Part shown: one piece after another, positions 48,850-63,962 of the stretch
How positions within the stretch are numbered: position 1 is the first letter of the stretch
Layout of the letters: each line of letters opens with the position of its first letter
NCBI RefSeq assembly: GCF_000483485.1
Contig: NZ_KI519609.1
Span: 835,460 to 899,459 of the forward strand
Reading direction: 5' to 3'
DNA length: 64,000 nt
Source: Thiomicrorhabdus chilensis DSM 12352
GTDB lineage: Bacteria > Pseudomonadota > Gammaproteobacteria > Thiomicrospirales > Thiomicrospiraceae
The notes under the pieces: generated by a model
The model's input: the letters and a program-made list of their open reading frames with translations, nothing else
Database searches by the model: none
What the model was told of the DNA's origin: nothing
Made by a program: the position numbers and the translations under genes

Positions 48850-51639
48850 TTAACCTGTATTGCGCATCCCGGCGGCAATGGCATTGATGCTGTTAAGCAA
48901 TGGCGTCAGCCAAACTTCTCTCTCCTCTTCAGTCAAGTTTTCATCCTTATATCGTCTCAATATGGCGACCTGGATATTGTTTAAAGGCTCCAGATAGGGC
49001 GTTCTGCGATTAAGTGACAGAGCCAGTGCCGGTGTTTCCGCCATCAGGTACTCGTTACCGGTCAGTTCCAGAATACGTTTAACGCCACGGGTATGTTCCT
49101 CGGCAATCATATCGTAGATTTTACGGGCGTTTTCCTGATTTCGTCCAAGTTTGACGTATTCAGCGCCTATTTGCAGATCGGTTTTAAACAAAGCCATCTG
49201 GATGTTGCTTAACAGGCCTTTGAAGAAAGGCCAGTTTTCATACATCTCTTTAAGCTCGGTTTCACCGTGCTGCTGAATCCACTTATCTAGTGCATAACCA
49301 GTTCCTTGCCAAGCTGGGAAAGTCAGACGAGCTTGTGCCCATCCGAAAATCCATGGAATCGCACGAATCGAAGACTTGGATAGGTTGCCTTTTTTACGGT
49401 GCGATGGACGAGAGCCGATGTTGAGTAAGCCGATTTCGGTCACTGGAGTTGCCTCGTAGAAGAACTCAAAGAAACCTTCGGTGTGGTCGGTCAATTCCCT
49501 AAAGCAGTCTTCACCATCTTGAGCAAGCTGTTGCATGGCCTGAAGATGTGCCGGGTTGTCCTTTTTAATCGGTTGAATGAGTCCGGTACTGGCCTTCATC
49601 AAGCCGGTGACACCCAGTGACAACTCATACATCGCGGTTTCGGCATTACTGTATTTGTAGGAGAGGACTTCACCTTGTTCAGTAAATTTAATTGAACCAC
49701 GTACCGTTCCGGTTGGCTGTGAAAGAATTGCGTGGTGAGTTGGCCCGCCTCCACGTCCTACCGTACCGCCACGCCCGTGGAACAGTCGGCAATCAATGTG
49801 GTATTCGTCGGCAAGTGCCATGATGGATTGTTGAGCTTGGTACAGACTCCACGCCGATGATAAGTTACCGCCATCTTTGGCCGAATCAGAGTAACCGAGC
49901 ATGATTTCCTGCTGGTTTCCTGAGGCCTTGAGCATAGTGCGGTAAGTTGAGTTTTCAAGCAGGGACTGAGTAACCGGCACAATGTGTTTGAGATCTTCAA
50001 TGGTTTCAAACAGTGGACTGATTTGAATGTCACAGTAAGGTTTTCCAGCATTATAGCCTGCCAAACCTGCCTGGTGAGCCAGGAACAGCACTTCCATGAC
50101 GTGACTGGCTTCATGTGTCATGGAAATCACATAGTTGTTGAAAGCCTTTGGGCTAATCTCATGGCGCATGGTGCGGATGACATTAAAGACCTCCAGCACC
50201 TCTTTGGTCATTTTGTCGAGTTTGAGGTGTTGGGTGTCGATGATGGTCGCAGAGGCCACATGGCTAGCCAGCAACTCCAGCTTGTCGCCTTCCGATAGCG
50301 AGTGGTAATCGATGTTCAGGTGTGAAAGCAGATCCGCGACCGCATCACTGTGCACGTTCGATTCTTGACGGATGTCTAGACGCATCAGGAAGAATCCAAA
50401 TGTTTGCACTAGGCGAATCAAATCTTGCAGATCAGCGTTGGCCACGTTGGCGTCACCATGTTCACAAAGTGATTGGTGGATCAGTTGCAGGTCGGCAAGC
50501 AGTTCGTCTTCTGTCGAGTAGGCAAAGCCCGATTTTTTGATTGGGCTGCCATTCAGTTGCGCTTCGACATAGTTCAAGTTTTGCTGTAAGCGGCCTCGAA
50601 TCAGGTAAAGGAAACGACGGTAGGGCTCATCCTTAAAGCGTTCAGGACGTTTTTTGAAAACCGCTTCCTGAAGGTCTGAATCCACAATGGTCGCCTTGTT
50701 GAGCAGGTCTTGGTTGATGTCGGTAATGTATTTTGAATGTGTCAGTTTGTGACTTAAGTCAAACACACGGTTTTGATATTCATAAAGTACCGAGCGGGTT
50801 TGCAATAGCAGTGCCTGTACCGTGGTTTCGTGGGTCACGTAAGGGTTACCATCCCGGTCACCCCCTATCCAAGAACCGAAGGTCAGGAAGTTTGGGGTCT
50901 CGATGTTATCGTTTGGATAGAATCGAGCCAGAGCGCGTTCCATGTAGCGATATACTTGTGGCACGGCGGTGAACAGGGATTGGCGGAAATAGTAAATACC
51001 GTTGCGAATTTCATCTTGTACGGTCGGTTTTTGACGGCGCACTTCATCGGTTTTCCAGAGCACTTGTATCTGGTACTGGAGCTTTTTGATGACTTCTTCT
51101 TGAGCGTAAGGGTTGTTGTAGGCTTCCGCTTCATTGAGTTCGCCCAGTGTTAAGAAGATCTTACGAAGGTTTTCCATGACGGCGCGTCTTTTGGATTCGG
51201 TCGGGTGAGCGGTGAAAACCGGAATATAGCAAAGATTGCCGAGCAGTTTTTTAACCTGTTCCGCTGAGAAATCCTGAGCTTTGAACCCTTCAATGGTTTT
51301 CAAGACAGAACCTTCCCATAAAGGGCCGTCCGACTTAAGCTGGCTTTGACGTTCGTGGTATTGGTGTTCTTCCTCGGCCAAGTTGACCAAGCTGAAATAG
51401 ATGTTGAACGCACGGATGATCAAGATGAGATCCTCGGCAGACTGTTTCTCAATAAAGTCAGTCAATTCGGAACGCAGTGCGGGGTCTTCCTTTTCGTCCA
51501 GCTTGATGTAACCCGTCCGTAGTTTTTCGATGGCATCCAAAACGGGTTTGCCAACCTGAGTTTCAATGATTTCACCCAGAAGGCTTCCAAGTAGTTTGAC
51601 CCTTGCTCTAAGTTGCTTATCTCGCTTTTCTGCAGCCAT
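48850..51639 (-). CDS. ppc: phosphoenolpyruvate carboxylase
   Basis: 929 residues. Catalytic and substrate-binding motifs: FTAHPTESKRRAV (His of site 1), GSWIGGDRDGNP, LGYSDSAKDGG, the glycine loop FHGRGGTVGRGGGPTH, and the invariant C-terminus MRNTG. It fixes bicarbonate onto PEP to give oxaloacetate, topping up the TCA or C4 pools. The ATG at 51639 with GAGAG before it is preferred to a GTG two codons upstream. Close to ppa and fbp, it forms a small central-carbon block on this strand, though each gene has its own terminator. Confidence 0.97.
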   Translation of the reverse strand: MAAEKRDKQLRARVKLLGSLLGEIIETQVGKPVLDAIEKLRTGYIKLDEKEDPALRSELTDFIEKQSAEDLILIIRAFNIYFSLVNLAEEEHQYHERQSQLKSDGPLWEGSVLKTIEGFKAQDFSAEQVKKLLGNLCYIPVFTAHPTESKRRAVMENLRKIFLTLGELNEAEAYNNPYAQEEVIKKLQYQIQVLWKTDEVRRQKPTVQDEIRNGIYYFRQSLFTAVPQVYRYMERALARFYPNDNIETPNFLTFGSWIGGDRDGNPYVTHETTVQALLLQTRSVLYEYQNRVFDLSHKLTHSKYITDINQDLLNKATIVDSDLQEAVFKKRPERFKDEPYRRFLYLIRGRLQQNLNYVEAQLNGSPIKKSGFAYSTEDELLADLQLIHQSLCEHGDANVANADLQDLIRLVQTFGFFLMRLDIRQESNVHSDAVADLLSHLNIDYHSLSEGDKLELLASHVASATIIDTQHLKLDKMTKEVLEVFNVIRTMRHEISPKAFNNYVISMTHEASHVMEVLFLAHQAGLAGYNAGKPYCDIQISPLFETIEDLKHIVPVTQSLLENSTYRTMLKASGNQQEIMLGYSDSAKDGGNLSSAWSLYQAQQSIMALADEYHIDCRLFHGRGGTVGRGGGPTHHAILSQPTGTVRGSIKFTEQGEVLSYKYSNAETAMYELSLGVTGLMKASTGLIQPIKKDNPAHLQAMQQLAQDGEDCFRELTDHTEGFFEFFYEATPVTEIGLLNIGSRPSHRKKGNLSKSSIRAIPWIFGWAQARLTFPAWQGTGYALDKWIQQHGETELKEMYENWPFFKGLLSNIQMALFKTDLQIGAEYVKLGRNQENARKIYDMIAEEHTRGVKRILELTGNEYLMAETPALALSLNRRTPYLEPLNNIQVAILRRYKDENLTEEEREVWLTPLLNSINAIAAGMRNTG

Positions 51640-51763
51640 GTTCACTCTCAGTTTTTATAAACACAAATTACCGAAATTATAACAGAATAATTGAGTTTTT
51701 TTTGAAACTCTTTCGCTTGATGTCTTAAGTAAATATGGGGTTTTACTCTGTTATGCCCATTAA

Positions 51764-51787
51764 AAAAGCCCCTGAAAAGGGGCTTTT
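51764..51787. terminator. intrinsic terminator of ppa
   Basis: AAAAGCCCCT-GAAA-AGGGGCTTTT, symmetrical, A-rich on one side and T-rich on the other. It lies 22 bases after the ppa stop on the minus strand. Confidence 0.85.
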
Positions 51788-51809
51788 AGTGTGTCAAGGA
51801 AATTAGCGC

Positions 51810-52346
51810 TTATCCTTGTTGTTTTTGCTGATACTGTTTGGCACCTGCCAGAATTTCCTGACGTGCGACATCCACGTCGCCCCAGCCATCAATGTTGACC
51901 CATTTACCAGGCTCCAAGGCCTTGTAATGGCGGAAGAAGTGTTCGATTTGCTCTTTAAGGAGTGGGATTTCTTCAACTGCATTGATGTTTTTATAGATTG
52001 GTGTCAGTTTGTCTACCGGTACCGCAATGACTTTGGCGTCTTCACCGCCATCATCGGTCATCTTGAGGATGCCGATTGGACGACAGCGAATAACCGAGCC
52101 GATCATCAAAGGGTGAGGGGTGACCACTAATACGTCAACCGGGTCACCGTCGTTTGCCAGAGTGTCATTGATGTACCCGTAGTTGGCAGGGTATTGCATG
52201 GTGGCCCCTTGAATTCGGTCCACCCAGACCAAGTCGGTGTCTTTATCGACTTCGTATTTAATTGGTGAAGCAAACGCAGGAATTTCAATTACTACGTTAA
52301 TGTCATTTGGCAGGTCTTTACCCGCTGGAACAGCTGCATAACCCAT
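51810..52346 (-). CDS. ppa: inorganic pyrophosphatase
   Basis: 178 residues, the soluble family I enzyme. Active-site parts are [36 protein letters not shown] (the D-x-D-P-x-D-V signature) and [13 protein letters not shown]. It hydrolyses pyrophosphate to drive biosynthesis. It is followed on the minus strand by a terminator and preceded by another, so it is monocistronic. Confidence 0.97.
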
Positions 52347-52380
52347 GGTGTAATCCTTGATAGTTAATGAGGGGGTTAAA

Positions 52381-52404
52381 CTAAAACACCCGCAAGAGCG
52401 GGTG
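52381..52404 (-). terminator. intrinsic terminator of fbp
   Basis: On the minus strand CACCCGC-TCTT-GCGGGTG is followed by TTTTAGTTTAA. Confidence 0.78.
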
Positions 52405-52430
52405 CTGAAATAAACGTTAGCAGGCGGGAC

Positions 52431-53402
52431 TTAACCTTTGTGGTAAGCCACAACTTTTGCCACTTCGTTTTTAGAACCTAGCACAACCGGTACGCGGTCG
52501 TGAATGCCTTCAGGTTGAACATCCATGATATCCATACGACCTGTAGAAGAAGCGCCGCCGGCTTGTTCAACAATCATTGACATTGGGTTACCTTCGTACA
52601 TCAGGCGAAGTTTACCGGCTTTAGAAGGGTCACGGTTATCGTACGGGTACATGAAAATACCGCCACGCATTAAGATACGGTGTACTTCAGCTACCATGGA
52701 AGCAACCCAACGCATGTTGTAACGCTTACCAAGAGGGCCTTCTTCACCCAGTAGGCAGTCATCAATGTACTGCTTCATTTCAGGTTCCCAGAAACGCTGG
52801 TTTGACATGTTGATTGCAAACTCGGCGGTATCTTCCGGAATGGTGATGTTTTCTTTGGTCAATACGAATTCACCGATGTTGGTATCAAGCGTGAAAACAT
52901 TGACGCCATGTCCGGTTGTCATCACCAATAGTGATGAAGGGCCGTAAAGAACATAACCGGCAGCCACTTGCTTGCGACCGTTTTGCAGGAATACTTCCTG
53001 GTTGTCGCCAGCAGTATCGTCTTGAGCTTCAAGAACTGAGAAGATCGTACCTACGGATAGGTTAACGTCAATGTTAGAAGAACCATCTAGTGGATCAAAC
53101 GTGACCAGGTATTTCCCCGATGCGTTAGCGGCAATCGTGTAGTCTTCTTCTTCAGAACCAACACCGCGAACATAAGGGTTGGCAACTAAGATGTCTTTAA
53201 GAAGATCGTTAGAGATAACGTCAAGCATCTTTTGAGTTTCACCTTGGACGTTTTCATCTTCGGTTGCACCTAGGATACCAGCAAGCTCACCTTGGCTTAG
53301 TTTGTACGCGATATCTTTACAGGCGACCATAACGTCTTTGATAACTAACTCTAGTTCAGCGCCTACGCCGTCTTTAGCCAGTACTTGATCTAATCTTTTC
53401 AT
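52431..53402 (-). CDS. fbp: fructose-1,6-bisphosphatase class I
   Basis: 323 residues. Metal and substrate motifs: [32 protein letters not shown] (DPLDGS signature) and [28 protein letters not shown]. It removes the C1 phosphate of fructose 1,6-bisphosphate in gluconeogenesis or the Calvin cycle. Together with ppc and ppa this suits autotrophic carbon flow, an inference from context. The final ~20 residues ([20 protein letters not shown]) are typical. Confidence 0.97.
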
Positions 53403-58337: not shown

Positions 58338-60674
58338 GTGACTAGTCAACAATCAGAAGAACAACGTGATCCATATGCTCAGCGTGAAGCCGAGAAGTAT
58401 GACAACCCTATCCCCAGCCGAGAATTCATTTCAGAAGTCCTAGAAACTGCACAAAAGCCTTTGCGTTTGTTCCAAATTGCCAAGTTGGTCGATGTGCCAG
58501 AAGAAGATGAAGAACGGTTTGAAGCCTTGTCGCGCAGAGTCAAAGCGATGGTCAGAGATGGACAGCTCATCCGCAACCGACGCGGCGCTTTTGGGCTTTT
58601 ACAGAAAATGGATCTGATCAAAGGCCGTGTATTGGGTCACCCTGACGGCTTTGGATTTGTGGTTCCAGAAGATGGCGGGAAAGACCTGTTTTTATCTGAA
58701 AAAGAGATGCACAAGGTCTTGCATGGCGACATCATTATCGCATCGGTTGTCGGTGAAGACCGCAGAGGACGCCGTGAAGGCATGGTGGTTGAGATCGCCG
58801 AGCACGCCAATAAGCAGATTTTGGGTAGGCTTGGGTTCGAGGATGGTCTGGCTTGGGTTAGACCTAACAATACCCGCATTACCCAGGACGTATTTATTCC
58901 GCAAGATGGTTTGATGGATGCCAAGGAAGAACAGATTGTTTTGGTTGAGGTTATTCATCAGCCTTCGTTGCGTTCAGGTCCGATTGGTAAAGTGGTCGAA
59001 GTGCTTGGTGACTATATGGCACCTGGCATGGAAATCGATTCCGCAATTCATGACCACAATATTCCCAATACCTGGTCGGAAGAGTTATTGGCCGAATTGG
59101 CGGAGATTCCTGATGAAGTAACCGAGGCCGATTTGGAAGGGCGAAAAGATCTTCGCGGCCTCCAGTTGGTGACGATTGATGGCGCGGATACCAAAGACTT
59201 TGACGATGCCGTATTTGCCAAACGCCGTAAAAATGGTTGGCGTTTAGTGGTGGCAATCGCAGATGTTTCGCATTACGTAAAGCCGGGTACGGATTTGGAT
59301 AAAGAAGCTCTGAAGCGTGGTAACTCAGTGTATTTCCCACAACGTGTGGTGCCAATGCTGCCTTCTAAGCTTTCGGATGGTCTGTGTTCCTTGAATCCTA
59401 AGGTGGATCGTCTTTGTATGGTGGCGGATTTAAGCATTACCGAAGACGGAAAGTTGGATCGCAGCCAGTTTTACCAGGCGGTTATGAACTCGAAAGCACG
59501 TCTCACCTATACCCAGGTCCATGAGATGTTGACCGATAAAAACAGTGCCTACCGCGAAGAGTTTGCAGAGCAGGTTCCGCATGTGGAAGCCTTGCATGAG
59601 CTTTACAAGGTGTTGCAGAAAGCGCGTGAGGAAAGGGGTGCTTTGGAGTTTGATACCACCGAAACACGTATTGTGTTTGATGAAGAGCGGAAGATTGAAG
59701 CCATTGTTCCTGTTGTGCGTAACGATGCCCATAAGCTCATAGAAGAGTGCATGCTGATGGCCAATGTGGCGACAGCACGCTATTTGAAATGGCACAAAAT
59801 CCCTATTGTTTATCGAGTGCATGAATCCCCGTTGGAAGAGCGTCTTAAGAATTTAAGAACCTTTTTGGCCGACTTTGGTCTGGTACTGGGCGGCGGTGAC
59901 GAGCCGACTGCGCATGATTATGCTGAAGTTTCCGCTAAAGTTGCGGGTGAGCCTTATGAGCATTTAGTGCAAACCGTGTTGCTGCGTAGTATGAATCAGG
60001 CTGTTTATACGCCTGATAATAAAGGCCATTTTGGTCTGAACTATGAGCATTACACACATTTCACTTCTCCTATTCGTCGTTATCCGGATCTTCTGGTTCA
60101 TCGTGCCATTCGTCATGCATGGTTGAAGCAGGGTGTGGAAGGCTTTATGTATGATGATGCCAAAATGGCCGAATTGGGCTCACACTGTTCAGATACTGAG
60201 CGACGTGCAGACGAAGCGACACGAGATGCGGTCACGTTTCTTAAATGCGAGTTTTTATCCCACCGTTTGGGTGAAGAGTATGATGCGGTTATTACCGCGG
60301 CGACCAATTTTGGCTTATTTGTAGAAATCGATCCATTGTATGTAGAAGGTCTGATTCACATTACCGAACTTGGTGAAGATTACTTCCATTACGACAATGC
60401 CCGCCACTGCCTCAAAGGCGAACGTACTGGAAAAGTATATCGTCTTGGGGATCGGGTTCGAGTTCAAGTCGCACAGGTTAATTTGGATGAACGCAAAGTC
60501 GATTTACGTTTTATCACGGATGATTCTGCGCAAGAAGAGGTCTCGGCCGAAGATGGTTCTCCATCATCTGAGACCCCAGCGAGTGAAGAGCAGGCTGAAC
60601 CGAAAAAACGACCTAAAAAACGTTATTACAATAAGAAGAAACGCGGTTCCCGCAACAGCAAAGGCAAGTCGTGA
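58338..60674 (+). CDS. rnr: ribonuclease R
   Basis: 778 residues: helix-turn-helix at the N-terminus (about 25-90), two cold-shock domains, the RNB exonuclease core (about 255-590; VTIDGADTKDFDDAVFAKR holds the catalytic Asp residues, RYPDLLVHRAIRH is typical), an S1 domain and a basic tail (KKRPKKRYYNKKKRGSRNSK). It degrades structured RNA 3' to 5', acts in rRNA quality control and trans-translation. GTG start. Overlaps rlmB by four bases. Confidence 0.96.
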   Translation: MTSQQSEEQRDPYAQREAEKYDNPIPSREFISEVLETAQKPLRLFQIAKLVDVPEEDEERFEALSRRVKAMVRDGQLIRNRRGAFGLLQKMDLIKGRVLGHPDGFGFVVPEDGGKDLFLSEKEMHKVLHGDIIIASVVGEDRRGRREGMVVEIAEHANKQILGRLGFEDGLAWVRPNNTRITQDVFIPQDGLMDAKEEQIVLVEVIHQPSLRSGPIGKVVEVLGDYMAPGMEIDSAIHDHNIPNTWSEELLAELAEIPDEVTEADLEGRKDLRGLQLVTIDGADTKDFDDAVFAKRRKNGWRLVVAIADVSHYVKPGTDLDKEALKRGNSVYFPQRVVPMLPSKLSDGLCSLNPKVDRLCMVADLSITEDGKLDRSQFYQAVMNSKARLTYTQVHEMLTDKNSAYREEFAEQVPHVEALHELYKVLQKAREERGALEFDTTETRIVFDEERKIEAIVPVVRNDAHKLIEECMLMANVATARYLKWHKIPIVYRVHESPLEERLKNLRTFLADFGLVLGGGDEPTAHDYAEVSAKVAGEPYEHLVQTVLLRSMNQAVYTPDNKGHFGLNYEHYTHFTSPIRRYPDLLVHRAIRHAWLKQGVEGFMYDDAKMAELGSHCSDTERRADEATRDAVTFLKCEFLSHRLGEEYDAVITAATNFGLFVEIDPLYVEGLIHITELGEDYFHYDNARHCLKGERTGKVYRLGDRVRVQVAQVNLDERKVDLRFITDDSAQEEVSAEDGSPSSETPASEEQAEPKKRPKKRYYNKKKRGSRNSKGKS

Positions 60675-61408
60675 AACAAGAGCTTATTTACGGCCTGCAT
60701 GCGGTAGAAAAGTTTCTTAAACAGTCTCCTCATTTGGTCTATCGATTGTCGGTTATCAAAGGCCGCTTGAACAATCGTCAGCAATCTTTGGTTGATCAGG
60801 CCAAGTCTTTGGGTGTGGCGGCCGAATTCGTGCCGAAATCCGCATTCAATGTGACCGAAGGCAATCATCAGGGGGTCATGGCCCTGGTCGCTCAGAAGCC
60901 TCAAATGAATGAATCCGATTTAGAGTCTTTGATTGAGGGGCTGGATAATCCGTTATTTCTGTTTCTGGATGAAGTGCAAGACCCGCATAACTTGGGTGCG
61001 ATATTAAGAACGGCGGATGCGGTGGGCGTCGATGCGGTGATTATCCCTAAGCATAATTCGGTCGGCATGAACGCTACGGTTCGCAAGGTGGCTTCCGGAG
61101 CGGCTGATAATGTGAGGTTGATTGTTGTTTCGAATCTTGTTCGAAGCATCAAAGCAATGCAGCAGTCGGGTATGTGGATGATTGGTATGGCCGGGGAAAC
61201 CGATGAAACCTTATATGACCATAATCTGACCGGTTCCATCGGGATTGTCATGGGCACTGAAGGGAGTGGTTTGCGTCGGTTGACCAAGGAAGCTTGTGAT
61301 CATCTGGCAGCCATACCGATGGTTGGAGTAGCCGAAAGTCTGAATGTTTCGGTGGCCACCGGTGTGGCACTATACGAAGTATATCGCCAGCGCCATCAGC
61401 TTCGCTAA
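60671..61408 (+). CDS. rlmB: 23S rRNA Gm2251 methyltransferase
   Basis: 245 residues. N-terminal substrate-binding domain (about 1-78) and SPOUT (SpoU) methyltransferase domain with DEVQDPHNLGAILRTADAVG, VMGTEGSGLRRLT and IPMVGVAESLNVSVATGVALYE, the three SpoU motifs with the deep trefoil knot. The GTG start overlaps rnr (GTGA), the same pair as in E. coli. A symmetrical terminator follows. Confidence 0.96.
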   Translation: MKQELIYGLHAVEKFLKQSPHLVYRLSVIKGRLNNRQQSLVDQAKSLGVAAEFVPKSAFNVTEGNHQGVMALVAQKPQMNESDLESLIEGLDNPLFLFLDEVQDPHNLGAILRTADAVGVDAVIIPKHNSVGMNATVRKVASGAADNVRLIVVSNLVRSIKAMQQSGMWMIGMAGETDETLYDHNLTGSIGIVMGTEGSGLRRLTKEACDHLAAIPMVGVAESLNVSVATGVALYEVYRQRHQLR

Positions 61409-61443
61409 GATGTTTTGTGGTTAGAGGATGTACCTAAATAAAA

Positions 61444-61470
61444 AAAACCGGCAGGCCTGCCGGTTTTTTT
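61444..61470. terminator. bidirectional terminator centred on a CAGGCCTG octamer
   Basis: AAAACCGGCAGG and its exact complement form a perfect 24-bp palindrome, with A tract to the left and T tract to the right. The octamer (61452-61459) is its centre. It ends rlmB and the facing kinase-Rieske gene. Confidence 0.85.
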
Positions 61471-61517: not shown

Positions 61518-62720
61518 TTAGAGTAAGAAAATATCACCTTTGTCATCTGTTCTGACTTCCAAAGCTTCAAGCTGTTCATCCCAGCATGGGCCTTCAATGC
61601 AGAGTCCGTCCTCAATTCTAAAGAACGCGTCATGAACCGAGCATTTCATGGTTTTTTCAAATGGATTGACATCAATTTTGTAAGCTTCATTCAGCGGAAC
61701 ATTTTGGTGAGGACAGTTATTCAGATAGGCTTTCACAACGTTTTCATATTTAATCAGCACAACCGATTTTCCTGAACTCTTGTCTTCCACAACTAAGGTT
61801 TTGGTGGTGCCCAGCTGAGAAAGGTTGGCAATCGCGGAGCTGGGCTCGACAGGAGTCAATAAATTGTCCAGTCCGTGCTTAAGGCACTTTTGTGCAGCCA
61901 GTTGGCTGGCAGCCTGTACCGCTTCGACCAACGGCTTTCCGGCAATCAAGTGGTGGATGACGGCGGCATTGAAGGTGTCGCCAGCTCCCAGGGTATCTAC
62001 AATCGGTGAGACCGTCTCAGCAGGAACGTGTTGGATTGTCCCTTGAGCTGGGCATAGCCAGGCACCCTTTGCACCCCAGGTGCAGATAAGGTGGCTGTTA
62101 GGTAACTTAGACTGCATGGCTTTTAATAAACTTTCACCATTGTCATGGCCTTTGGCTGTGGCATAGTGATGAGAGAATAAAATCAGGTTCGCTTGCGGTA
62201 GCAGCTCTTCGATCTCTTCTCGTGGTTTTTCAACCTCTAATGAGACGGGTTGATGGGTGAGAAAGGTCTTGGCTATGTTAAACATTCCTTTCAAGTTAGC
62301 GATGTTGCGGCCTTCAAAATGGAGCCAATCGTATTCTTCGATTTCAATTTTGGCGAAATGGTCAAAACTCAATTCGGGAAGATCGCGATAGTGAACGATC
62401 GCTCGATTGCCATTTTGGGCGTTTAGGTTGATATAGGAGCAGGGGGTGCGTCCTTTGATAAAACGTTGTATGTGGTCAACGTTGATGTTTCGTTCTTTGA
62501 GTCCGCTGATCAGTTGCTTGGCTTCGCTATCCCCACCGGTGGTGGTGCAGATGGCGGTATCGTGTCCAAGTTGGGACAATACATAAAGCGTGTTGCTGAC
62601 ATTTCCACCGATTTGAGTGTAACGTTCACTGGCACGCAACTCCTCGTCGTCGTGCGGGGCGTGCGGAACTTTTAATACGGTGTCTAAAACGGCGTTTCCA
62701 ATTCCTAATATTTTAGCCAT
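61518..62720 (-). CDS. PfkB-family sugar kinase fused to a C-terminal Rieske [2Fe-2S] domain
   Basis: 400 residues in one continuous frame. Residues 1-300 are a PfkB/ribokinase-type kinase close to ketohexokinase: GIGNAVLDTVL start, IGGNVSNTLYVLSQLG (di-Gly), TTGGDSEAKQL, EVEKPREE and the anion hole/catalytic loop DTLGAGDTF (Asp248). Residues about 305-400 form a Rieske-type domain: Cys336-Pro-His338 and Cys360-Ser-Val-His363, with CIEGPCWDEQLEALEVR after it as in Rieske ferredoxins. A kinase with an iron-sulfur domain would be a redox-sensed enzyme. The phosphorylated substrate is unknown. Candidate extended -10 TGC-TAAAAT lies about 45 bases upstream (62774-62766). Confidence 0.85.
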   Translation of the reverse strand: MAKILGIGNAVLDTVLKVPHAPHDDEELRASERYTQIGGNVSNTLYVLSQLGHDTAICTTTGGDSEAKQLISGLKERNINVDHIQRFIKGRTPCSYINLNAQNGNRAIVHYRDLPELSFDHFAKIEIEEYDWLHFEGRNIANLKGMFNIAKTFLTHQPVSLEVEKPREEIEELLPQANLILFSHHYATAKGHDNGESLLKAMQSKLPNSHLICTWGAKGAWLCPAQGTIQHVPAETVSPIVDTLGAGDTFNAAVIHHLIAGKPLVEAVQAASQLAAQKCLKHGLDNLLTPVEPSSAIANLSQLGTTKTLVVEDKSSGKSVVLIKYENVVKAYLNNCPHQNVPLNEAYKIDVNPFEKTMKCSVHDAFFRIEDGLCIEGPCWDEQLEALEVRTDDKGDIFLL

Positions 62721-62765
62721 GGGGACCTTTATATGATTCAGTATGGATTGTTCGGGTTGGACAAG

Positions 62766-62774
62766 ATTTTAGCA
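62766..62774 (-). promoter_or_regulatory. extended -10 of the kinase-Rieske gene
   Basis: On the minus strand TGC-TAAAAT, 46 bases before the gene start. No clear -35. Confidence 0.4.
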
Positions 62775-62967
62775 TAGCTTGCCTCTGCGCTAGGAATTTC
62801 GTTTGTCAAGCAAGGCGCGGTGAATAAATTTATTAAAAAACTTGACATGGCAATATGTCGCTTTATTTTTTTATTCTATAATTTTTATCTACAATTGATT
62901 GTAACTTGTTGTTTTATATTGACTATAAGGTGTCCTTTTAAGTCTATTTGATTCCATTAATAAGGTC

Positions 62968-63008
62968 TGTGTATTATCCACAAAAGCTGTGGATAACTTT
63001 GTGAGTAA
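62968..63008. other. cluster of four DnaA boxes
   Basis: Two perfect boxes in opposite directions, TTATCCACA (62974-62982) and TGTGGATAA (62988-62996), separated by five bases. Two one-mismatch boxes flank them: TGTGTATTA (62968-62976, overlapping) and TGTGAGTAA (63000-63008). The AT-rich run to the right would melt easily. Confidence 0.65.
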
Positions 63009-63212
63009 TCTTCTAAAAAACAACTTAAGTGCTTTAAAATAGCCGTAAAATATTAAATTGCTTAAAAATTAAACAGTAAGCTTTTTTAGGTAAATAATCA
63101 GAATTATTTATTTACAAATAAGTAAGAAAAAAATAAAAAAATCATCTCAAGGATGAAAAAAAATTAAAAAGCGCTACAATCAACCTTATGCATCTACCTT
63201 AGAGCGAAAATT

Positions 63213-63962
63213 ATGGCAGAGATCAAAACCGCATTTAACGCAAGTTGTCAGAACTGCGGATTGCAAAAGATTTGTTTCCCGACTGGATTGACTCAAAATG
63301 AGATGAATCAGTTGGATGACATAGTCAATAGAAAAGCGCCATTGCAAAAAAACCAGATGTTGTTTTCAGCAGGTGATAAATTTGTTTCACTTTATGCCAT
63401 CCGCGCCGGTGGCGTTAAAGTCTATTCTTTTTCCGACGGTGGAGAGGAGATCATTCATGGTTTCTATTTGCCTGGTGATGTAATCGGTATTGATGCTTTG
63501 GCTTCCAGGGTGCACATGTTTAATGCCATGGCCTTGGATGTGACCAGTGTTTGTGCCGTGCCGTTCAATGAGTTGAATGATTTGTCCACCAAAATTCCGC
63601 ATTTGACTCAACAGGTACTCAATATTATGAGTAAGGAGGTCGTGGAAGGGCGACTGCATTCTGAATTGCTGACTAAAAAAAATGCCGATCAACGGATTGC
63701 GCAGTTCATTTGGAGCATGGCGGAACGCTTTAAAAGCCGTGGCTATCACTACCTTGAGTTTCGTTTGAGTGTGTTGCATCGCGATGTAGCCACTTATTTG
63801 GGATTAACACCTGAAACCGTCTCGCGTATTTTGGCTAAGTTGCACCAAGAGAAGGTGGTGACTTGGAAAAAGAAAGAGGTTCACATTCACGACGAAAATG
63901 CATTGAGATCTCTGGCCGGTAATCATTTTTGTGATTCCCACTCGTGCGCAAAAGTTGTATAG
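63213..63962 (+). CDS. fnr: FNR-type oxygen-responsive transcription regulator
   Basis: 249 residues. Cys12, Cys15 and Cys21 (CQNCGLQKIC) with Cys114 (TSVCAVPF) are the four ligands of the oxygen-sensing [4Fe-4S] cluster. A cyclic-nucleotide-type beta barrel (about 30-145), dimer helix and helix-turn-helix follow (about 193-215; RDVATYLGLTPETVSRIL), with Glu, Ser and Arg of ExxSR contacting TTGAT half-sites. It switches genes for low-oxygen respiration. It stands after a long AT-rich region with a DnaA-box cluster. Confidence 0.94.
   Translation: MAEIKTAFNASCQNCGLQKICFPTGLTQNEMNQLDDIVNRKAPLQKNQMLFSAGDKFVSLYAIRAGGVKVYSFSDGGEEIIHGFYLPGDVIGIDALASRVHMFNAMALDVTSVCAVPFNELNDLSTKIPHLTQQVLNIMSKEVVEGRLHSELLTKKNADQRIAQFIWSMAERFKSRGYHYLEFRLSVLHRDVATYLGLTPETVSRILAKLHQEKVVTWKKKEVHIHDENALRSLAGNHFCDSHSCAKVV

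Follow-up and report, generated by a model that had tools for sequence, protein, structure and literature searches.

The known settings of Rieske clusters are electron transfer and oxygenases. The Rieske ferredoxins of oxygenases, among them CarAc, BphF and T4moC of the carbazole, biphenyl and toluene (di)oxygenases, serve an oxygenase and are not known to be fused to a kinase. On the kinase side, the closest described enzymes are the animal ketohexokinases (KHK) KHK-A and KHK-C (PDB 2hlz, 3nbv, 6ul7). According to excerpts of a study of the human enzyme, KHK is active as a dimer that has a lid clasp; in KHK-A, replacing D15, N42 or N45 by alanine leaves no activity, substitutions of R141 and K174 lower it, and D258 has been put forward as the base (PMC11332825). 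For prokaryotes, a ketohexokinase has been described from Haloarcula and Haloferax, and the excerpted report from 2024 terms this haloarchaeal enzyme the first evidence for a physiological role of ketohexokinase in prokaryotes. The enzyme is distant from eukaryal KHK, and its gene is clustered with that of a 1-phosphofructokinase (PMC11519228, excerpts). A search of open-licence full texts yielded no description of a Rieske-linked KHK, PfkB kinase, ribokinase or sugar kinase. Nor did these texts describe a bacterial KHK-like enzyme of such a kind, Methylophaga included. This agrees with an earlier reading of the locus from its letters only (hereafter the sequence-only reading), which knew of no characterised enzyme so built.

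We analysed a window of 64,000 nt from Thiomicrorhabdus chilensis DSM 12352 that contains a gene in which a kinase of this type is fused to a Rieske domain. The features of the locus are listed in Table 1. The frame runs from its ATG over 400 residues without interruption, and by eye a ribosome-binding-like AAAGG is seen immediately 5′ of the start codon. Pfam places the PfkB domain (PF00294) on residues 1–286 with an E-value of 3.7e-38 and 132 bits (curated cut-off 25.8), and the Rieske domain (PF00355) on residues 311–381 with an E-value of 8.5e-9 and 35.6 bits (curated cut-off 20.3). The open frame and the two Pfam domains bear out the sequence-only reading, which had seen a full PfkB kinase and a Rieske domain in one frame. 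The positions that it gave for Asp248, Cys336-x-His338 and Cys360-xx-His363 are all correct.

Table 1. Coordinates of the fused gene, its parts and its surroundings in the window.
Feature	Position	Strand	Remarks
Whole fused gene, 400 aa + stop codon	61518..62720	-	ATG at 62720
Ketohexokinase-type PfkB kinase domain, residues 1–287	61860..62720	-	Pfam PF00294; structural match to human/mouse KHK
Linker, residues 288–311	61788..61859	-	Lowest conservation of all parts
Ferredoxin-type Rieske [2Fe-2S] domain (predicted), residues 312–400	61521..61787	-	Pfam PF00355; domain model
Catalytic base Asp248 (= human KHK Asp258)	61977..61979	-	185/185 relatives
Predicted cluster ligands Cys336-Pro-His338	61707..61715	-	35/35 family, 41/41 stand-alone partners (alignment A4)
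Predicted cluster ligands Cys360-Ser-Val-His363	61632..61643	-	35/35 family, 41/41 stand-alone partners (alignment A4)
fnr, divergent neighbour	63213..63962	+	NCBIfam NF008365, 249.1 bits vs cut-off 228
SpoU-family RNA methyltransferase (probably rlmB), convergent neighbour	60671..61408	+	Pfam
A-tract/palindrome/T-tract between convergent genes	61440..61470	.	By eye, resembles a two-way terminator; terminator scan did not list it

Every one of the 37 searched genomes of the family f1 carries the gene, 35 of them as one intact frame, and a 38th genome of the family (G331) carries it in fused form too. In two genomes, the draft G007 and the complete G019 (loci L047 and L048), the gene is broken by an in-frame stop or a frameshift, from either decay or sequencing error, and these two were excluded from the family counts, giving n = 35. 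The other 34 intact copies are 46–80% identical to the window protein. D248, C336, H338, C360 and H363 are each found in 35 of 35 copies, and the KHK pocket residues, D13 included, show no variation among them. Mean pairwise identity between the 35 copies is highest in the Rieske core (residues 331–380; 83.5%), followed by the whole Rieske part (66.2%), the kinase (64.2%) and the linker (48.4%).

When the protein was compared with solved structures using phmmer, human and mouse KHK were the best matches (E 3.2e-46), followed by the sulfofructose kinase YihV (4.3e-18); ribokinase was also far behind KHK. The predicted model of the fused protein (mean pLDDT 92.0, pTM 0.78) superimposes on human KHK-C with a Z-score of 41.5, the highest found against the animal enzymes (32–35% identity), and an rmsd of 1.4 over 288 residues. 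YihV (PDB 7ag6), which uses a ketose as the window kinase probably does, is the second-best solved structure, but at Z 35.0 and 25% identity it lies 6 Z units under KHK. The best ribokinases reach about 34. Among the matches listed, the model is thus closer to KHK than to any other PfkB kinase (41.5 versus at most 35).

The residues of human D15, N42, N45, R141, K174 and D258 correspond to D13, N40, N43, R138, K165 and D248 of the window protein, and all six are kept. Across 185 distinct kinases of the family, comprising fused, adjacent and solitary forms, five of these positions are kept without exception and N45 in 184. The window protein departs from animal KHK in being bacterial, in its link to a Rieske protein, which is fused or often encoded next to it, and at human E227, which is replaced by Ala here and variable across the family. 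D248 is the catalytic Asp of a GAGD motif, as found in PfkB kinases. The NCBIfam ribokinase model TIGR02152 gives 92.4 bits against a cut-off of 299.65, which is below the equivalog level. The "PfkB-type sugar kinase" of the sequence-only reading therefore stands as far as PfkB is concerned and is refined by structure, pocket and phmmer ranking: the kinase is of the ketohexokinase type, and a generic sugar kinase or ribokinase is rejected on the KHK Z-score, the pocket residues and the TIGR02152 shortfall. By analogy with KHK, the fused kinase would phosphorylate the O1 of a ketose using ATP.

The source genome contains four PfkB matches. No 1-phosphofructokinase was recognised among them in a scan that covered all but the weakest match (L004), so that an aldolase may have to take the ketose 1-phosphates. 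The window kinase shares with the haloarchaeal enzyme, whose product is fructose 1-phosphate, that it is a prokaryotic kinase of the PfkB superfamily; it is set apart from that enzyme, as described in the excerpts, by its KHK-like structure and by the lack of a recognised 1-phosphofructokinase among the PfkB matches (PMC11519228). Elsewhere in the source genome, a sucrose cluster (L258:5290-11250) encodes a glycosyltransferase that resembles sucrose synthase and also carries a sucrose-phosphatase domain, a further sucrose phosphatase, another PfkB kinase and an alpha-amylase-family enzyme. As this separate kinase adjoins the sucrose-phosphate genes, the fused kinase is not needed as a sucrose fructokinase, though it may share in this task, and we did not retain the role as its explanation.

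The Rieske domain was also modelled alone (pLDDT 85.1). The model has the fold of a Rieske ferredoxin with the C-x-H...C-xx-H ligands, and it matches the ferredoxins of carbazole, toluene, naphthalene and biphenyl oxygenases, CarAc, T4moC and BphF among them, with Z-scores of 13–14. Among the matches listed, the small subunits of nitrite reductases reach 12.7, Rieske proteins of photosynthetic and cytochrome complexes 11.7 and arsenite oxidase subunits 11.0, where matches no more than one unit apart were counted as tied. Foldseek, ranking by E-value, puts the arsenite oxidase Rieske subunit on top. In sequence profile comparison the nearest protein is T4moC (E 1.7e-5), and phmmer with the Rieske part alone found no solved structure at E ≤ 0.01. 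Judged by its modelled fold, the Rieske part is probably of the ferredoxin type. Besides the four ligands it has two further invariant cysteines, Cys 374 and 379. The stand-alone proteins in Table 1 are taken from alignment A4, which contains 10 hand-picked stand-alone kinases and 41 of 43 stand-alone Rieske rows.

CarAc, BphF and T4moC are partners of oxygenases; in contrast, a PF00355 search of the source genome at E ≤ 1e-3 found no Rieske oxygenase. The only other match is a 218-aa frame, which from its length we guess to be the bc1 subunit, and since it is the sole further match no Rieske oxygenase client was found. A small Rieske protein is common across Gammaproteobacteria, being present in 143 of the 369 genomes of our class sample, 83 of which have no such kinase, which indicates that the Rieske protein has other roles. 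Around Rieske genes distant from the kinase the neighbours vary, and in the 17 of 20 loci (L236–L255) inspected no single partner is shared by all; by eye, an NTF2-like gene is seen in four of these loci and an AmpG-like permease in three.

The KHK-like kinase was found in 102 of the 369 class-sample genomes (hand count), the boundary of the kinase set being drawn where the E-value falls from 6e-46 to 4e-22 and Rieske-only rows start. We inspected 100 of these loci (all except those of G097 and G351) with flanks of 0.3–9 kb and defined a Rieske gene as adjacent if it lies on the same strand no more than 300 nt away. The Rieske gene is adjacent in 31 loci and fused in 9; another 59 have no Rieske gene nearby and one is at a contig end. 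The 40 linked genomes are spread over 25 of the 55 kinase families. We also examined 80 named loci, which are the best 80 of 417 confirmed by closeness to a Methylophaga-like query and are skewed accordingly, and which are in part identical contigs to those of the class-sample genomes. Methylophaga, Thiohalobacter, Thiohalomonas, Thiotrichaceae and Chromatiaceae are represented among them. The 80 loci divide into 47 adjacent, one fused, 28 without a Rieske gene and four cut short.

In each of the 47 adjacent named loci no more than 26 nt separate the kinase stop codon from the nearest codon at which the Rieske gene could start, and in 13 of them the Rieske start overlaps the kinase end by 4 or 8 nt. 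These short gaps and overlaps suggest translational coupling, and the kinase and the small Rieske gene are probably coupled in this manner. A single locus (L220) has the two genes in reversed order. The linked Rieske copies carry complete ligands in 104 of 106 cases, a count that some genomes enter twice, and the other two are truncated at contig ends. Among the kinase genomes without linkage, 42 of 60 have no such Rieske protein at all (E ≤ 1e-10). With 59 of 100 kinases unpaired and these 42 genomes lacking the Rieske protein altogether, the kinase can evidently work alone, and thus the Rieske protein is an accessory to it. In a phylum-wide sample, matches at E ≤ 1e-20 were seen in 3 of 299 genomes, all of the same class: the source genome, G603 and G469, the last with a weak match over another PfkB-like frame.

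Outside the family f1, fusions with other linkers occur in the family f158 and in G181, G090 and UBA652. Parsimony requires five changes for the fused state on a FastTree tree of 185 rows and four on a tree of 60 hand-picked rows, and two of these four to five changes are forced by supported branches. A single clade of all fused rows was not rejected by the AU test (p 0.273). We consider several origins of the fusion likely.

The sequence-only reading had pointed to FNR, encoded by the next gene, as a hint of oxygen control. The gene is indeed fnr (Table 1) and lies 492 nt from the fused gene in divergent orientation. Among the 33 family genomes with sufficient flank, all but G035 (32 of 33) have an fnr homologue next to the gene in divergent orientation; five further family genomes are cut by contig ends and stand outside this count. 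As evidence for oxygen control, the adjacency did not hold up. Allowing up to two mismatches, we found no FNR box in the interval 62721–63212. Across 32 family intergenic regions (32 genomes from 34 loci, L049 and L050 being duplicates of L015 and L034), boxes with at most one mismatch were found at five sites in four regions, all of them on the fnr side and 445–563 nt from the kinase start. Sites with two mismatches are nearer the kinase in some genomes, at about the rate seen in shuffled sequence. The neighbourhoods inspected outside the family differ from those within it. With near-consensus boxes at least 445 nt away and different neighbours elsewhere, we rejected FNR control of the kinase, and the adjacency of fnr is no evidence for oxygen control.

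On the other side of the fused gene, the gene for the SpoU-family methyltransferase is found in most family loci. Upstream of the kinase and on the same strand, 18 of 160 kinase loci have a gene for a giant protein of about 1600–1860 aa when complete (for example L265:2934-8006, L262:9302-14569, L267:3090-7055). A scan of one copy (L265) gave two cyclic-nucleotide-binding stretches, a rhodanese and an FGE-like domain. In the source genome no whole giant protein was found, and the matches are at the level of domains.

RuBisCO is present in 94 of the 102 kinase genomes versus 82 of the 267 others in the class sample, an odds ratio of 26.5 that is confounded by ancestry. Counted by family, with ancestry handled to the family level only and a family total taken as 170 or 182, RuBisCO is found in 52 of the 55 kinase families, and 34 RuBisCO families are without the kinase. 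The three kinase families without RuBisCO in the sample are f3, f34 and f86, of which f3 clusters with Methylophaga in the tree; Methylophaga-like kinase genomes have no RuBisCO. Methylophaga runs the ribulose monophosphate (RuMP) cycle. In at least 8 of the 102 genomes, from six families, no more than 10 kb separates the kinase from phosphoribulokinase, where genome size alone would lead one to expect roughly one such genome (a rough estimate); the two are equally close in G603 outside the sample. A phosphoribulokinase-like match (E ≤ 1e-30) is found in 98 of the 102 kinase genomes, the source genome included; in the whole sample such matches occur in 223 of 369 genomes versus 176 of 369 for RuBisCO, so the search is not strictly specific. 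The presence of this match in nearly all kinase genomes argues against the kinase being a substitute for phosphoribulokinase. Because RuBisCO so often accompanies it, the KHK-like kinase is a candidate for an unrecognised accessory enzyme of the Calvin cycle. In the main text of a comparison of Calvin-cycle genomes, the words ketohexokinase, ribokinase, PfkB and fructokinase are absent (PMC7895386).

Around phosphoribulokinase (L263-L268, L272-L275, L277) we also observed a loose recurring gene block containing varying subsets of a FIST-domain protein, an aldo/keto reductase, DUF6763, a small protein that matches nothing in Pfam, the Rieske gene and the kinase. In the window, genes for PEP carboxylase, inorganic pyrophosphatase and FBPase are found together at 48850–53402, about 8–13 kb from the fused gene.

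Based on these observations, we tentatively propose that the gene encodes a KHK-type ketose O1-kinase fused to a Rieske-type ferredoxin that senses or relays redox state and thereby switches the kinase, in the service of ketose salvage. A free ketose, the substrate inferred from KHK, would enter the pocket and be phosphorylated on O1 by ATP with Asp248 as base. The predicted Rieske cluster would be non-catalytic, and its state would follow the cellular electron supply. This state would then, probably through the KHK lid or dimer closure, switch the kinase. In this way free ketoses leaked from the Calvin cycle would be returned to the pool as ketose 1-phosphates, salvage taking place only under a redox state where the expense of ATP pays; a leak from the RuMP cycle would be the counterpart in the Methylophaga-like relatives. 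The fusion suggests redox control of the kinase, a possibility already raised in the sequence-only reading, and the recurrence of the kinase–Rieske gene pair strengthens this suggestion. A wider version, in which the Rieske [2Fe-2S] domain is the regulatory switch of a redox-gated ketose O1-kinase that is part of the sugar-phosphate cycles in Gammaproteobacteria with an autotrophic or methylotrophic way of life, present as a coupled pair and as a fusion of probably more than one origin, we regard as doubtful.

Several other explanations have to be weighed against redox switching. A frame or assembly error merging two genes, which the sequence-only reading had itself named as a possible refutation, would fit the broken frames in two of the 37 family genomes and the separate genes in other families. 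Since the frame is uninterrupted in 35 family genomes with invariant ligands, 34 of them well diverged from the window copy at the identities given above, and since more fusions with differing linkers exist outside the family, the fusion is no artefact and we give such an error practically no credence. Phosphoribulokinase attacks the O1 of a ketose, the same position as KHK, and this, along with the strong RuBisCO association and the closeness of phosphoribulokinase in six families, would suit a kinase that is an unrecognised second phosphoribulokinase or an O1 kinase of another Calvin-cycle sugar phosphate. We hold this to be very improbable, as 98 of the 102 genomes already have a phosphoribulokinase-like match, not each of them proven, and the pocket retains the KHK residues for unphosphorylated fructose.

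The Rieske domain may instead be an electron carrier for another enzyme, with the fusion setting its amount or place and the kinase being without redox regulation. The nearest folds are those of oxygenase ferredoxins, and 83 of the 143 genomes with a small Rieske protein have no such kinase, the neighbourhoods of its gene being varied, both of which speak for a carrier; however, no client was found, the PF00355 matches of the source genome being the fused protein and the 218-aa frame, and the link to the kinase is seen repeatedly, in 25 of 55 families and at one locus in reversed order, and we consider a carrier unlikely. It is also rather improbable that the cluster or the domain serves structure or assembly, in the dimer, a complex or anchoring, without redox function. 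An added domain could affect the oligomer of an enzyme that, in the excerpts, works in dimeric form and has a lid clasp (PMC11332825), and Cys 374 and 379 are as invariant as the ligands, but the four ligands are strictly kept and conservation peaks around them, which indicates that the cluster itself matters.

Taken together, the family resembles a bacterial ketohexokinase that is structurally near the animal enzyme, and the presence of a Rieske domain on a sugar kinase suggests an iron-sulfur centre that directly controls a metabolic kinase by redox.
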